Source of the DNA: Cohaesibacter haloalkalitolerans
GTDB lineage: Bacteria; Pseudomonadota; Alphaproteobacteria; Rhizobiales; Cohaesibacteraceae
Reading direction: 5' to 3'
DNA: 64,000 bases
NCBI RefSeq assembly: GCF_003574655.1
Contig: NZ_QNUM01000003.1
Span: forward strand, 1 to 64,000
The notes beneath the pieces are model-generated. The model was not told the origin of the DNA and made no database searches. It worked only from the letters and a program-made list of their open reading frames with translations. Below are positions 18,944 through 25,526 of this stretch, piece after piece. Position 1 is the stretch's first letter; each line of letters starts with the position of its first letter. The position numbers were made by a program, and so were the translations under genes.

Positions 18944-20352
18944 TCCCGAGGGATCGCTGTCGCGTCGAGCCAGGCGCGTATATCTTCCAGCGCCCGTCGA
19001 GCCAAAGCCTTTTTCTTCGAAAGCTGCTTTTCAACGCCCCGCATTCTCGACCCGTCTTCGCGCTTGCGCGGGAAATCAACTGGCGGAAACAGGCCAAAGT
19101 TGACATTCATCGGCTGGAATGACCGGACACCGCCGTTGGAATCGATAAGGTGCCCACCGGTGATATGCCCCAAAAGAGCGCCGAAAGCGGAGGTTTCAGG
19201 AGGTGCGATTGCTGTTGCGCCATGCATTTCAGCTGCAATAAAGCGCCCGGCCAGCAACCCGATGGAGGCCGACTCGACATAGCCCTCACAGCCAGTGATC
19301 TGGCCTGCAAAGCGGATGTTCGGCTGACTCTTGAGCCGCAGCGTACCATCCAGCAGCTTGGGGGAATTGAGGAAAGTGTTGCGATGAATGCCGCCGAGCC
19401 GCGCGAACTGCGCATTCTCAAGCCCCGGGATCATCCGGAAGACCTCGGATTGCGCACCATATTTCATCTTGGTTTGAAAACCGACGATGTTGAACAGGGT
19501 GCCGAGCTTGTTGTCCTGCCGCAACTGGACAACCGCATAGGGGTCTTCGTCTGGCTTATGCGGGTTGGTCAGGCCGACCGGCTTCATCGGACCATAGCGC
19601 GGTGTATCTCGTCCGCGTTCGGCCATCACCTCGATCGGCAGGCAGCCGTCGAAATATTTCGCCTTTTCCCATTCCTTGAACTCGGCCTTCTCGGCGGCCA
19701 GCATGGCATCAAGGAACTGGTTATATTCTTCTTCATTCATCGCGCAGTTGATATAGTCCGCGCCGGTGCCGGACGGGCCCTTTTTGTCATAGCGCGACTG
19801 GAACCAGGCCTTGCTCATGTCGATGGAATCGAAATGGATGATCGGCGCGATAGCATCATAGAAGGACAGGGATTCCTCTCCGGTCGCGGCAAGAATGGAC
19901 TGGGACAACGCCTCGGATGTCAGCGGGCCAGTGGCGACGAGGCACGGACCGGCATCCGGGCCGGGCAGGGCATCCATCTCGCCGCGTACGATGGTGATCA
20001 ACGGATGAGACGACAGCTTCTGGGTTACCGCCTCCGAAAAAGCCTCCCGCGCCACCGCAAGGGCGCCGCCCGCCGGAATGGCATTGGCATCGGCACAGGC
20101 GATGATCAACGACCCGGCCTGCCGCATCTCCTGATGCAACAACCCGACCGCGTTGGCCTCGAAATCATCTGACCGGAAAGAGTTGGAACAGACAAGCTCG
20201 GCGCAATGGTCTGTCACATGGGCGTCTGTCGAGCGAATCGGCCGCATTTCATGCAACCGCACCGATACACCGGCATTGGCCAACTGCCAGGCGGCTTCCG
20301 AACCGGCGAGCCCTGCTCCAATGACATTCACTACCTTGCTATCCGTGGTCAC
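18940..20352 (-). CDS. trmFO: tRNA (uracil-54-C5)-methyltransferase, folate- and FAD-dependent
   Basis: TrmFO makes ribothymidine at position 54 of tRNA using methylenetetrahydrofolate and FADH2. The 470-residue protein begins with the FAD-binding [14 protein letters not shown], and has the family segments [28 protein letters not shown] and [14 protein letters not shown], the last with a catalytic cysteine. The end contains [21 protein letters not shown]. Start codon is GTG. It converges on the phytoene-synthase-like gene, the order usual in the Hyphomicrobiales. Confidence 0.97.
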
Positions 20353-20528
20353 AACGTTGAACTTTCCTCAAGAATCCCGATCGGGAACCGCCAAAACCGG
20401 CTGAATTTTGTCAAGATGGGATACCTAGCACTCTGGGCAGAAAATGCAAGGTTTCACGCTCAAACTGACATCACGATGTCGGGTGTTCCATGTTTTGCAC
20501 CAACTGGACGCCCAAACATCTTTTTGTG

Positions 20529-20554
20529 TTGGCAGCGTAAAAATCGAGTGCTAA
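20529..20554 (+). promoter_or_regulatory. CIRCE-like inverted repeat before the lipoprotein gene
   Basis: The right arm GAGTGCTAA (20546-20554) is a perfect CIRCE half-site. The left arm TTGGCAGCG is only partly complementary and the spacing is one base short. It lies 50 bases before the ATG at 20605. HrcA control is possible but weakly supported. Confidence 0.2.
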
Positions 20555-20604
20555 CACCTATGCATCTCATACCATTTCTAAACCAGGCAAGGGGACTGAA
20601 AGAT

Positions 20605-21225
20605 ATGAACCTCAAACTGCTGACGGCACTTCCCTTGCTGGCATCTCTTGTCGCCTGTAATGCCCAAACGTCGGACTCGACGGCACGCTGGGTCTCGGCG
20701 ATGAACAACCGCGCACCAACGGCAACCACCATCTATGTCTGCCATGCATTCGGTTGCAGCTTGAAATACGGGTTCCGTTTCACAAAGAAAGACCTCGACA
20801 AACTCAAGCGCATTTTGAGCGCGGGAAGCCGCAGCCCTGAAGCCGAACGCAAGGCCATCGGCAATGCTGTCGTCTGGTTTGAGAAGCGTGTCGGTCCGAT
20901 CATCGGCTCCGACAAGGACAAGGGTGGCTTGGACATGCAAAACGCTGGCGTTCCAGGTCAGATGGATTGCATCGATGAATCGAGCAACACGACCTCGCTT
21001 ATTTCATTCGCCCAGAATCACGGGTTCCTGAAGTATCACAAAGTGCAGTCCCCTGTTGCCCGTGGCTTCTTCCTCGATGGCCGCTATCCGCACGCAACCG
21101 CTGTCGTGCTGGAAAAGGAATCCGGCAAACGCTACGCCGTGGACAGCTGGATCTATGACAATGGTGTCTTCCCCAAGATCAAGCCATTGGAAGCCTGGAT
21201 GGCAGAGTCACCCGCTCGCGGCTGA
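20605..21225 (+). CDS. Putative lipoprotein of unknown function
   Basis: The 206-residue product starts with a lipoprotein signal peptide (MNLKLLTALPLLASLVAC, lipobox LVAC, Cys18). The mature part has conserved-looking segments IYVCHAFGCSLKYGFRF, PGQMDCIDESSNTTSL, GRYPHATAVVLEKESGKRYAVDSWIYDNG, including three further cysteines and His/Asp residues. The tail resembles a small cysteine/histidine hydrolase-like fold, but I do not recognise a named family. GGGGAC lies upstream of the ATG. The frame is open to 20206 through non-coding sequence. Confidence 0.75.
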   Translation: MNLKLLTALPLLASLVACNAQTSDSTARWVSAMNNRAPTATTIYVCHAFGCSLKYGFRFTKKDLDKLKRILSAGSRSPEAERKAIGNAVVWFEKRVGPIIGSDKDKGGLDMQNAGVPGQMDCIDESSNTTSLISFAQNHGFLKYHKVQSPVARGFFLDGRYPHATAVVLEKESGKRYAVDSWIYDNGVFPKIKPLEAWMAESPARG

Positions 21226-21402
21226 TAGCCATCAACGAGGTGGCATCTGATTGCCAGCTTGAGACAACGGTTTCCGAACATCTCCATGAAGGCAGCGCTT
21301 AAGGCGTTGCAGCGTCGCCATGCCCGCAGCCTTGCAAGTTGCGCGAACGGCGACAAAAGCTTGTTGCGATAATTTCTCAGGACCGGGAAACCAGAAACTA
21401 GA

Positions 21403-21434
21403 AAGCCCACCGGGGGAGGAGGTCCGGTGGGCTT
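21403..21434 (-). ncRNA. Anti-SD stem-loop 3 of CcsR/cuckoo-type RNA array
   Basis: The minus strand reads an 11-bp perfect stem AAGCCCACCGG/CCGGTGGGCTT around the loop ACCTCCTCCC. The loop contains the exact CCUCCUCCC motif. It is the last hairpin and may double as the terminator, although only broken T-tracts follow (CTTTCTAGTTTC). Confidence 0.7.
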
Positions 21435-21442
21435 CGTAGGGT

Positions 21443-21473
21443 GTTTCAAAACGGGGAGGAGACGTTTCGAAAC
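21443..21473 (-). ncRNA. Anti-SD stem-loop 2 of CcsR/cuckoo-type RNA array
   Basis: The minus strand reads an 11-bp stem GTTTCGAAACG/CGTTTTGAAAC with one G-U pair around loop TCTCCTCCC. The loop holds CUCCUCCC, one base short of the consensus. The stem sequence is unrelated to the two flanking hairpins, so the conserved part is the loop. Confidence 0.7.
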
Positions 21474-21475
21474 GA

Positions 21476-21503
21476 CAGACTTTCGGGAGGAGGAGAAAGT
21501 CTG
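21476..21503 (-). ncRNA. Anti-SD stem-loop 1 of CcsR/cuckoo-type RNA array
   Basis: The minus strand reads a 9-bp perfect stem CAGACTTTC/GAAAGTCTG around loop TCCTCCTCCC, which contains the exact CCUCCUCCC. It starts 14 bases after the stop of the DUF1127 gene, so the RNAs are probably processed from that mRNA. Confidence 0.72.
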
Positions 21504-21516
21504 AAACTTTTAAATT

Positions 21517-21666
21517 TTACATCCCAACTGCGCGTCTTGCAGTCTGGGTGATGTCCGCACGTGAAATGCTCACTTCGCATTCTCTGTTGGACAAGCGATT
21601 TAGATTATCGACCGTGTCACGAAAATTGCGCCACTGCCTATAATTCTGAACAACCGTATCAAGCAT
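21517..21666 (-). CDS. Short DUF1127 (YjiS-like) protein, CcaF1-like
   Basis: The 49-residue protein MLDTVVQNYRQWRNFRD... ends with LNRLSNRECEVSISRADI, the arginine-rich DUF1127 pattern. In Rhodobacter a DUF1127 protein of this kind (CcaF1) is a small RNA-binding protein encoded just upstream of the CcsR RNAs and involved in stress adaptation. The frame is open to 21825, but 49 residues matches compact family members and AGGA lies nine bases before this ATG. Three anti-SD hairpins follow on the same strand. Confidence 0.75.
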   Translation of the reverse strand: MLDTVVQNYRQWRNFRDTVDNLNRLSNRECEVSISRADITQTARRAVGM

Positions 21667-21821
21667 CTTGATAATCCTGCGTTGCCGAACTCTTAGTGAC
21701 ATCGTCTCATCTGGGAGACGCCTTATTTCGTTTTCAATCAACATCTCGTTGCTGTTGATAAATAGATAGCAAACTCCGACGCTACTTTGCACTGCGAAAT
21801 TATGCATAGCTGGCTTGCAGA

Positions 21822-21983
21822 TCATGCAAAACCATCATTGCTCACGAGAAGAAGAAGAAAAATTCGCATATCAAAAATATTAATTGGAAAATACGTTATT
21901 ATTTTCAGCAAGTTAGAGAATAGAAAGACAAATTGATTCCAATCAGCCCTGATACGTAAATTACCGTATATCACTTGGGTCAA
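21822..21983 (-). CDS. Possible 53-residue ORF upstream of the DUF1127 gene
   Basis: A TTG at 21983 is preceded by a perfect AGGAGGT (21996-21990) and opens a 53-codon frame ending at 21822. The product would be hydrophobic and basic (for example NQFVFLFSNLLKIITYF and MRIFLLLLVSN). Its stop overlaps by ATGA the first ATG of the longer DUF1127 frame. No family is recognised and the AT-rich sequence makes chance ORFs likely. Confidence 0.25.
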   Translation of the reverse strand: MTQVIYGNLRIRADWNQFVFLFSNLLKIITYFPINIFDMRIFLLLLVSNDGFA

Positions 21984-22234
21984 GATCCCACCTCCTGTGA
22001 AAAGTGGAATTTTTCAAATTTTGTGACGTTGCAAAATTAACGTTCAAAAACACAATTGTGCGATGCAGCAAAATTCACCAGAATTGACATGATCTATATC
22101 AATGCGAATGAAAGATCAGTAGCGCCTGTCAATTTATTCAGAAAAATCATAAAGTTATAAAAATATTGACTTTTGACGGCGTTGTGCACCGCCAAAAGTA
22201 TTACGTATTTTACCTCACCCCTAAAGCCTGAGAA
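21826..22234. other. Long AT-rich intergenic region between DUF1127 gene and uvrA
   Basis: About 400 bases, much AT-richer than the genes around it. It contains the possible 53-codon ORF (21822-21983), the uvrA terminator (22156-22199) and, presumably, the minus-strand promoter of the DUF1127/small-RNA transcript. I could not assign a heat-shock or sigma-70 promoter by eye. Confidence 0.4.
22156..22199 (-). terminator. Intrinsic terminator of uvrA
   Basis: On the minus strand ACTTTTGGCGG (22199-22189) pairs with CCGTCAAAAGT (22179-22169) with one G-U, followed by CAATATTTTTATAAC. A separate perfect hairpin aaagcctga/tcaggcttt (22223-22243) overlaps the uvrA stop codon. Confidence 0.7.
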
Positions 22235-25129
22235 TCAGGCTTTCGAGTCGCGGCGCTCATTGAGCTCCTTCAAAAACAGCCCGGTATAGCTTTTCTCGCA
22301 TTGCATGACATCTTCCGGCGTACCCTCAACGACAACTTGGCCACCACCATCGCCACCTTCTGGTCCGAGATCGAGAATCCAGTCTGCTGTCTGTATCACT
22401 TCGAGGTTATGCTCGATGACAATGACCGTGTTGCCCTGATTGACCAACTCATGCAGCACTTCGAGCAGCTTGGCGACATCGTGGAAATGCAACCCCGTCG
22501 TCGGTTCGTCCAGGATATAGAGTGTCCGCCCCGTCGACCGCTTGGAAAGCTCCTTGGCCAGCTTGACACGCTGGGCTTCGCCGCCCGAAAGCGTTGTTGC
22601 CTGTTGGCCGACTTTGACATAGCCAAGCCCCACTCGCTGCAGGGTGACCATCTTGTCACGCACGGAAGGCACCGCCGAGAAGAAGTCGGCAGCCTCGTCA
22701 ACGGTCATGTCGAGCACGTCAGAGATAGACTTGCCCTTGAACTGCACCTCGAGCGTTTCGCGATTGTAGCGATGCCCCTTACAAACGTCGCATGTTACAT
22801 AGACATCGGGCAGGAAGTGCATCTCGATCTTGATAACGCCATCTCCCTGACAGGCCTCACAGCGCCCACCCTTGACGTTGAAAGAGAAACGACCCGGAGC
22901 ATAGCCGCGCGCCTTGGCTTCCGGCAACCCGGCGAACCAGTCGCGAATGGGCGTAAAGGCGCCGGTGTATGTCGCCGGGTTGGAGCGGGGTGTCCGGCCA
23001 ATCGGCGACTGATCGATATCGATGACCTTGTCGACATGCTCCAGTCCTTCGATCCGGTCATGCGGAGACGGCATCTCTCGGGCGCGGTTGAGCTTCATGG
23101 CAGCGCTCTTGTAGAGCGTATCAATGAGGAAGGTCGACTTGCCGCCACCGGATACACCCGTCACACAGGTAAAGGTACCAAGCGGAATGGAGGCAGTCAC
23201 ATTCTTGAGGTTGTTGCCGCGCGCATTGACGACCGTGATCTGCTTTTTCTTCTTGCCCTTGCGGCGAGCGTGGTCAAGCATGATCGTCTTGGTGCCAGAC
23301 AGATACTGGCCTGTCAGGGATGCCGGGTCGGCCATGATCTCCGCCGGGGTTCCCTTTGATACGATCCGCCCACCGTGGACACCCGCGCCCGGTCCGACGT
23401 CCACCACATAGTCGGCTTCCAATATGGCGTCCTCGTCATGCTCAACGACAACCACGGTGTTGCCGAGATCACGCAGATGCTTGAGCGTTTCCAGCAGACG
23501 GGCGTTGTCGCGCTGATGCAGACCGATCGACGGCTCGTCGAGCACATAGAGAACACCGGTTAGACCCGACCCGATCTGCGAGGCCAGCCGGATACGCTGG
23601 CTTTCACCACCTGACAGCGACCCGGAGCCACGCGACAGGGTAAGATAGTCCAGCCCGACATCATTGAGGAATTTCAGGCGCTCACGGATCTCCTTGAGAA
23701 TCCGCTCGGCAATTTCCTTCTGCTTGTCAGTCAGCGTTGAAGGCAGATCCTGCACCCAATGGGCAGCGGCGCGGATGGAAAGGCTCGCCACCTGCGATAT
23801 ATGCTTGCCATCAAGCTTGACCGCCAAAGCCTCCGGCTTCAGGCGGTTGCCTTCGCAGGCTGAACAGGCATGAGCGGACTGATACTTGCCAATCTCCTCA
23901 CGCACCATGTTGCTTTCGGTTTCGCGGAACCGCCGCTCCAGATTGGGGATCACGCCCTCGAAAGGCTTCGAGGTCTTGTAGGAACGAGCACCATCGTCAT
24001 AGACAAACATCAGTTTCTCATTGCCCGTACCGTAGAGAATGACTTCCTGCGCCTTGAAGGGCAGCTCGATCCACGGCACCGTCAGCGAAAAGTCATAATG
24101 CTTGGCCAGCGCCTCAAGGGTCTGGCGATAGAAGGGCGAAGAGGTCTTGGACCAGGGCGCAATCGCCCCGTCCTTGATGCTGCGCGAGGTATCGGGGATG
24201 ACCAGGTCCGGGCTGATCTGCAACTCACTGCCAAGGCCGTCGCAAACGGGGCAGGCGCCAAACGGATTGTTGAACGAAAACAGCCGCGGCTCGATTTCGG
24301 GGATGGTAAATCCGGAAACCGGGCAGGCGAACTTCTCCGAAAAGGTGACCCGCTTCGGCTCGCCCTTGTCGTCCGTCTCGTCAACCATTTCGATGATCGC
24401 CAGACCATCGGCCAGCTCAAGAGCCAGTTCGAGAGAATCAGCGAGCCGCTTCTCAATCCCTTCCTTGACCACCATGCGGTGAACAACGACCTCGATGTTA
24501 TGCTTGAACTTCTTGTCGAGCTGCGGCAACTCGCCGTCATTATACATCTGGCCATCGATGCGGAAACGGGTAAGGCCCCGTTTCACCAGATCGGCCAGCT
24601 CCTTGCGGAACTCGCCCTTGCGGCCACGCACCATCGGCGCCAGCAACAGGAAACGGGTTTTCTCGGGCAGTTCCATCACCCGGTCCACCATCTGACTGAC
24701 CGTCTGGCTTTCAATCGGCAGACCGGTCGCGGGACTGTAGGGAATGCCGACACGCGCAAACAGCAGGCGCAGATAATCGTAGATCTCGGTCACGGTCCCC
24801 ACTGTGGATCGCGGGTTGCGCGAGGTGGTCTTTTGCTCAATGGAAATGGCCGGTGACAACCCTTCGATGGAATCCACATCAGGCTTCTGCATCATCTCCA
24901 GAAACTGACGGGCATAGGCCGACAGCGATTCCACATAGCGCCGCTGCCCCTCGGCATAAATGGTATCGAACGCCAGTGAGCTCTTGCCAGAGCCGGAAAG
25001 GCCGGTCATGACGACCAGTTGATCGCGCGGAATATCCAGATCGACATTCTTCAGATTATGCTCACGCGCGCCGCGAATCGAAATCATCTTCTGGCCAGGC
25101 GCAAATGGCATTTTGGGGGTATCAGTCAT
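22235..25129 (-). CDS. uvrA: Excinuclease ABC subunit A
   Basis: DNA-damage sensor of nucleotide excision repair; a double ABC ATPase. The 964-residue protein has the first Walker [14 protein letters not shown], a CxxC-type zinc module ([22 protein letters not shown]), the signature [16 protein letters not shown], a second Walker [17 protein letters not shown], a second zinc module ([18 protein letters not shown]) and [16 protein letters not shown] with [11 protein letters not shown]. Start is ATG 25129; an in-frame start at 25150 would add seven residues. It diverges from ssb. Confidence 0.98.
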
Positions 25130-25526
25130 GTCAAACAGTCTTTCTCTCAACGCGGGCAGGCATCAGAACCACTACACGAATAGGCTTTACGGGGAGGGTG
25201 GGTGACAAGATCACCCAGCCTTGGTGTTTGTCCTGCAATTCTCACCCGATGCAATATCGGTTTATAAAAATCAAGGCAATGGCCAATTTCGATGGCTTCC
25301 GAACGCAAACAACTGAATCGCGGGGCTTTCATCCGTACATGATTTGTTCTATATTGTGAAGCTATTCATTGCATCGCCACCATGCATATGGCGCATATGG
25401 TGAGCACAGGCCCAAAGTATGGGGATTGCGCCAAAGCCATATGGAAGTCGGGAACGAAGCCGAATATGCTGGGCCAAATGCCTCGACGGACTGTCAGGAT
25501 ACAGCAAAGGAACAAAGGAAAAAGCA
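25130..25526. other. Divergent uvrA-ssb control region
   Basis: About 400 bases between two DNA repair genes that are often SOS-controlled. A single GTTC half-site followed by tatattg occurs near 25346, but the second half does not match the alphaproteobacterial LexA consensus GTTC-N7-GTTC. I see no other clear site and no gene. Confidence 0.35.

Follow-up and report, generated by a model that had tools for sequence, protein, structure and literature searches.

On the minus strand of a 64,000-nucleotide stretch of Cohaesibacter haloalkalitolerans DNA (the window), a small DUF1127 gene is followed by three hairpins with anti-Shine-Dalgarno (aSD) loops, which raises the question of what kind of RNA this is, which regulator would control it and how far it is tied to the protein encoded in front of it. 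Arrays of this type, their loop motif and their association with DUF1127 have already been published. In the cuckoo loci, exemplified by CcaF1-CcsR1-4 of Rhodobacter sphaeroides, a small DUF1127 gene is likewise described in front of aSD hairpin RNAs, and a DUF1127 gene with CcsR-like RNAs is there named a CIN1 locus (PMC10253847). The alpha-r14 RNAs (NfeR1/Smr14C2 of S. meliloti; RFMSmelA075), known as trans-acting sRNAs of some 115 nt, share with the window locus three hairpins, an aSD motif in each loop and stems that differ from one another; they are described with several copies per genome and with an LsrB-type box upstream, which is found here as well (PMC10746234, PMC7143759, PMC3927594). 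Targets reported for the VtlR/LsrB regulators include DUF1127 genes and AbcR2 in Brucella, abcR1, atu1667 and vrsA in Agrobacterium, and nfeR1 and abcR1 in Sinorhizobium. What is new here, and promising, is the occurrence of such a locus in Cohaesibacter and its link to an LsrB regulator. In the open-licence literature, LsrB/VtlR was not found joined with DUF1127 and cuckoo, CcsR or NfeR1 (the original cuckoo and CcaF1 papers, which lie outside that scope, may note the box); PMC12501420 has LsrB, DUF1127 and CcaF1 together, but LsrB only in the title of a reference. No Cohaesibacter paper with the term 'small RNA' was found in the same literature.

The DUF1127 gene and its three-hairpin array

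The protein gene (21517-21666, minus strand) consists of 49 codons (21520-21666) and a stop codon (21517-21519). Its Pfam match (PF06568, 23.9 bits against a cut-off of 23.3) is marginal when taken alone, and an NCBIfam scan of the frame gave no useful model match. Pooled over eight of the nine orthologues of the locus (the protein of the ninth is identical), pS is 0.436 and pN is 0.018, and because of these values the frame is regarded as a real gene despite the marginal Pfam match. Judged from its substitutions it is under strong purifying selection, so the 49-codon DUF1127 gene proposed in an earlier sequence-only reading of this DNA is confirmed. Upstream of the locus, on the same strand, lies uvrA (frame 22235-25150, named by eye), with a terminator-like hairpin on its 3' side at 22169-22199 (minus strand), and downstream of the array there is a convergent, lipoprotein-looking frame for which a Pfam scan gave no match. 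A DUF1127 gene of S. meliloti is described as having a leader frame (PMC12218461). A 53-codon TTG frame at 21822-21983, considered for that role here, has no Pfam or NCBIfam match and is not conserved in the orthologue alignment, and is thus unsupported. The third DUF1127 gene of the same genome (C17, a 132-codon frame) has no ar14 match nearby.

The array begins 7 bases past the stop codon and is 112 bases long (21398-21509, minus strand). It matches RF02344, the Rfam family ar14 to which NfeR1 belongs, with 76.5 bits against a cut-off of 58.8 (E 2.4e-13), and its assignment as an ar14 (alpha-r14, cuckoo-type) RNA draws on this match together with fold and covariation. Three separate stem-loops are predicted with a fold energy of -46.7 kcal/mol, compared with a mean of -20.9 kcal/mol for shuffled sequences (z -8.79; 0 of 200 shuffles equally stable). 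On the minus strand these are hairpin 1 at 21476-21503 with the loop UCCUCCUCCC (21485-21494), hairpin 2 at 21443-21473 with the loop UCUCCUCCC (21454-21462) and hairpin 3 at 21402-21435 with the loop ACCUCCUCCC (21414-21423). The sequence-only reading had correctly placed three stem-loops within about 100 bases 3' of the gene (21402-21503) and had also given the loop motifs as they are found: CCUCCUCCC is complete in loops 1 and 3, whereas loop 2 carries CUCCUCCC, eight of the nine letters, and differs from alpha-r14 in lacking the first C. UCCUCCC is present in all three loops and is unpaired in the fold, and the stem sequences are unrelated between hairpins within one array.

The locus had also been likened to the cuckoo/CcsR arrangement. 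An aSD RNA behind a DUF1127 gene is indeed what is found, but among the families tested alpha-r14/NfeR1 of the Hyphomicrobiales (Rhizobiales), and not CcsR, comes closest. CcaF1 is described as a 71-residue protein whose gene has an RpoHI/HII promoter and is accompanied by four CcsR RNAs (PMC10253847), whereas the present gene encodes 49 residues and precedes one three-hairpin RNA. Compared with NfeR1, which is described with its own promoter, the RNA here lies behind a DUF1127 gene. The AbcR1/2 RNAs (alpha-r15, RF02345) are likewise aSD RNAs near lsrB, and an AbcR-like sequence below the cut-off lies beside lsrB in this genome; the window array, however, matches ar14 and not ar15, for which a search of window positions 20000-23000 up to E 1 gave no match. 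A weak third ar14 match in the genome (C23, 31.5 bits) fell below the cut-off and was set aside; it sits at the 3' end of a reading frame and by eye has only two pyrimidine-loop hairpins.

Short motifs of this kind are unremarkable on their own in the window, where CTCCTCCC occurs five times against 2.8 expected (15 of 100 shuffles reach this count) and CCTCCTCCC three times against 0.7 expected (2 of 100 shuffles). This frequency, and the terminator-like look of hairpin 3, would suit an ordinary terminator region with chance pyrimidine-rich loops. Hairpin 3 has a weak U tract and may be an intrinsic terminator; a simple terminator scan did not list it, the loop limit of the scan (8) being smaller than its loop. 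However, a set of three such motifs, each in the loop of a hairpin and all within some 100 bases, is not chance, and neither is the ar14 match. The family match, the stability of the fold and the helix changes and loop cores described below refute the terminator as a full explanation, and we regard it as hardly credible.

Conservation was followed across 61 genomes (this one and its relatives). At E <= 0.001 ar14 is matched in 34 of them, and in 23 a match exceeds the cut-off. The 18 Cohaesibacter genomes contain 37 matches over the Rfam cut-off, a threshold that favours intact loops. Arrays were located within these 37 loci by a motif-cluster script, and removal of eight letter-for-letter duplicates left 29 distinct arrays for the covariation count. 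UCCUCCC is present in 87 of the 87 loops of these 29 arrays, all of them over that cut-off, and 99.4% of their stem cells pair, compared with only 56-58% when partners are slid by one base. Ten of the 29 stem pairs show two-sided changes, five show one-sided changes, 13 are invariant and one departs only through unpaired cells. The two-sided changes occur in all three helices, at 5 of 8 counted pairs in hairpin 1 (97.8% of cells paired), 2 of 10 in hairpin 2 (100%) and 3 of 11 in hairpin 3 (100%). The covariation score was reached by 0 of 500 shuffles, and a second measure, the number of further pair types, by 18 of 500.

The earlier claim of conserved loops on drifting stems fits the fixed core, but the stems are mostly conserved within the genus: the mean majority is 0.92 in stem columns, 0.85 over the loop columns as a whole and 0.71 in spacers, and in these alignments loops exceed stems in conservation only at the loop core. 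The reverse pattern, in which loops vary while stems are kept, had been named in the sequence-only reading as one that would refute it; it is nearly found at stem/loop 2, where in the nine orthologues of the locus the stem is invariant and the base just 5' of the loop core is variable, the core itself being kept. Selection seems to act on loop core and pairing jointly.

An LsrB/VtlR-type box in the promoter region

A conserved putative LsrB/VtlR operator region (21786-21830, minus strand) is kept in the orthologues and contains, at 21804-21816 read on the plus strand, an exact copy of the box published for VtlR/LsrB, GCAT-N3-TG-N3-T (PMC7486931, PMC8844928); the motif of Brucella VtlR is given as CAATGCAGCCATGCA (PMC12595884). 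A putative -10-like element, TATCTA (21763-21768, minus strand), was assigned by eye with no -35 element recognised, and an inverted repeat, TCAACA..TGTTGA (21738-21758, minus strand; by eye), lies near the presumed transcript start. In the orthologues TTTGCTATCTATTT or near variants occupy the -10-like position, and the inverted repeat is kept in the nine orthologues of the locus. A sigma-70 scan of the window did not list the -10-like element, and none of the 37 genus upstream regions contains the sigma-70-type pattern CTTG-N17..21-CTATAT, so that no core promoter of a published type was recognised. One simple RpoH-type pattern was also found in none of the 37, so that the locus differs from CcaF1-CcsR in having an LsrB-type box and no match to this RpoH-type pattern.

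Read on the opposite strand from the gene, the box precedes 35 of the 37 genus arrays, compared with a mean of 4.0 and a maximum of 9 of 37 in 100 shuffles. The exceptions are two loci without DUF1127, which carry the one-base variant GCATAGCAG; the same variant precedes the AbcR-like sequence beside lsrB. A looser core of our own definition is present upstream of all 37 loci. The core CWGCTATGCA occurs 11 times in the C. haloalkalitolerans genome (reversed control, 2) and precedes both of its ar14 loci as well as the AbcR-like sequence beside lsrB. A SulP-like transporter frame (L113, C18:435844; named by eye) is likewise preceded by an LsrB-type core, CAGCTATGCA, that has a TGCA half-site.

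The genome encodes an LsrB orthologue (C19) that matches PDB 9HH1, deposited as LsrB (PMC11975290), over its full length with 410 bits. Its gene adjoins trxB, as vtlR is described to do in Brucella (PMC12595884), and is followed by the AbcR-like sequence; the AbcR-like matches of this genome score 35.5 and 29.9 bits, under the Rfam cut-off of 40. On this sequence evidence the promoter region points to LsrB/VtlR as the regulator. Box and orthologous regulator gene are thus shared with the known VtlR/LsrB regulon, in which DUF1127 and aSD RNA targets are described as separate genes, whereas here they form one apparent unit. Upstream of the operator there is also an FNR/CRP-like site, TTGATATAGATCAT (22089-22102, minus strand); in 11 of 16 orthologues of the locus a TTGA-N6-TCA(A/T) site precedes the LsrB-type core by 289-292 bases, the sequence between site and core being poorly conserved.

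Arrays with and without the protein gene

Outside the family, an order-level survey covered 49 loci, with one DUF1127 gene per genome (29 from search returns and 20 fetched); these are part of 114 qualifying genomes, out of 121 with a match, and are skewed to stronger matches. The box is present within 300 bases upstream of 27 of the 49 DUF1127 genes (50 shuffles: mean 3.4, maximum 7). Within 350 bases downstream, 22 of the genes are followed by two or more aSD cores (shuffles: mean 0.5, maximum 3), or 21 when the cores are required to be unpaired in the fold. The two features go together, the box being found at 17 of the 22 loci with at least two cores and at 10 of the 27 others (Fisher p 0.009, an optimistic value for related genomes); five of the 22 lack it. 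Two loci, L058 (G029) and L164 (G194), have eight aSD cores within 350 bases behind the DUF1127 gene, and L164 passes the ar14 cut-off while L058 does not. Within the Cohaesibacteraceae, locus L054 of G019 has four consecutive DUF1127 genes, three of which are followed by tandem 42-base hairpin-like units (at 1039-1254, 1725-1865 and 2352-2497; 91-94% matches) that do not reach the ar14 cut-off. With stems nearly identical, L054 is probably a case of recent array growth.

The short distance between stop codon and array, and the DUF1127 gene that precedes 35 of the 37 Cohaesibacter arrays over the cut-off, would also be expected if the hairpins were a cis-acting 3' UTR that stabilises the DUF1127 mRNA or mediates autocontrol by the protein, with no targets in trans; CcaF1 is described as acting on RNAs behind its own gene (PMC10253847). 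The remaining two arrays argue against this. In 16 of the 18 genus genomes the array is flanked by both uvrA and the convergent lipoprotein-like frame (in G005 the contig starts just upstream of the DUF1127 gene, with a lipoprotein-like frame downstream, and in G008 it stops just past the array, with an upstream gene other than uvrA). At this place the DUF1127 gene is present in 14 of the 16 and missing in G007 and G012, whose arrays (L077 and L078) score 84.2 and 85.6 bits to ar14. From the operator-like core to the first loop the distance is 94-97 bases in these two and about 290-335 in the others at this place, and in the two the TCAACA..TGTTGA repeat is replaced by repeats of different sequence (by eye, GTGATC..GATCAC in L077 and GCGAT..ATCGC in L078). 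As array and box variant remain without the DUF1127 gene, the RNA has been kept without its neighbour protein.

A short uvrA tree places G007 and G012 as sisters (0.945) nested among DUF1127 carriers, and the outgroup G018 carries DUF1127 genes at the uvrA-lipoprotein place. Deep nodes of this tree are weak (0.52-0.55) and the outgroup sequence has 357 bases, so only the pairing of G007 with G012 is relied on; gene loss is the simpler reading of the absence, with that weakness of the deep nodes in mind, and the protein cistron seems to have been lost at this locus in two Cohaesibacter species. Similarly, at three arrays of G042 (L186, L187 and L190) the box is present and the 450 bases upstream contain no DUF1127 match, which also speaks against an action in cis. 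The box is present at four of the six arrays of G042 and two show none; at L188 a DUF1127 gene lies upstream and the box falls between gene and array, as if this array had its own promoter. G007 and G012 each retain one DUF1127-array unit elsewhere, so that the protein may bind in trans. Overall, we consider a purely cis-acting 3' UTR to be quite unlikely.

Candidate targets and a proposed mechanism

By analogy with its relatives, the array is probably a trans-acting RNA that masks the ribosome-binding sites of other genes. NfeR1 is reported to be activated by LsrB and to silence ntrB and two transporter mRNAs through three redundant aSD loops, its effect on ntrB being abolished when all three motifs are changed (PMC10746234). 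In the C. haloalkalitolerans genome the pattern GGGAGGAG-N3-9-ATG has 21 sites, compared with six for the reversed pattern, and because of the NfeR1 analogy mRNA sites of the GGGAGGAG type may be those silenced by the array. Seventeen candidate target frames of at least 60 codons lie behind GGGAGGAG: transporter parts account for five (two ABC permeases, one ABC ATPase, DctP and TctC), ten belong to other families and two have no Pfam match. The transporter share among these 17 is only suggestive. One pair of divergent genes, L122/L123 (C11:809256 and 809596), has GGGAGGAG before both start codons; the products are a zinc-dependent dehydrogenase (ccr-like by eye) and a member of the methylmalonyl-CoA mutase family. 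ntrB was rejected as a conserved target: all that its start region offers here is GGAGAGG, which matches poorly and sets this genome apart from the NfeR1 system, and on sequence grounds the NfeR1-ntrB loop is not obviously conserved.

Repeated identical loops would equally suit a multi-site decoy that sequesters a protein or imitates the tail of the 16S rRNA instead of silencing specific mRNAs, and relatives with up to eight cores (L058, L164) or tandem 42-base copies (L054) fit such a role. However, both NfeR1 and AbcR1/2 are reported to silence mRNAs through aSD base pairing (PMC10746234, PMC8844928), and we regard the decoy as unlikely.

The account that we favour, with fairly high confidence, is that of an LsrB-controlled transcript that would yield both a DUF1127 protein and an mRNA-silencing aSD RNA; its transcription, processing, LsrB binding and target pairing are steps that we infer. 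One minus-strand transcription unit would comprise the LsrB/VtlR-type operator and promoter (about 21763-21830), the DUF1127 cistron and, at the 3' end, the ar14 RNA, whose hairpin 3 perhaps also ends transcription. The unit would be turned on by LsrB, a LysR-type regulator whose gene adjoins trxB, in response to the signals usual for it (in relatives, redox or nitrogen stress). The RNA may then be freed by processing or may work inside the longer transcript, and any of its three UCCUCCC loops could block the translation of many mRNAs, with those of transport and metabolic genes perhaps frequent among them, by pairing with their purine-rich Shine-Dalgarno sequences. The DUF1127 protein would be a separable partner that may bind RNA or aid its maturation, as does CcaF1, which is reported to bind RNA (PMC10253847) and is described as assisting RNase E in maturing the CcsR RNAs, or may act on proteins in the manner of the Agrobacterium SDPs, which are reported to work through protein contacts (PMC12501420).

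We see an even chance that DUF1127-aSD units under LsrB/VtlR occur order-wide with separable halves, and that stand-alone alpha-r14 RNAs such as NfeR1 arose from loss of the protein cistron. If true, this would join work on the cuckoo/CIN1 loci, on NfeR1 and on VtlR-controlled DUF1127 genes, which the portions of that literature consulted treat apart so far. Independently of this, LsrB is a clear regulator hypothesis that covers the entire unit in this marine genus. The natural absence of DUF1127 at one locus separates the function of the RNA from that of the protein, and species with and without the gene at this one place offer a direct comparison for the RNA- versus protein-binding role of the DUF1127 domain, which has been called a puzzle (PMC12501420).
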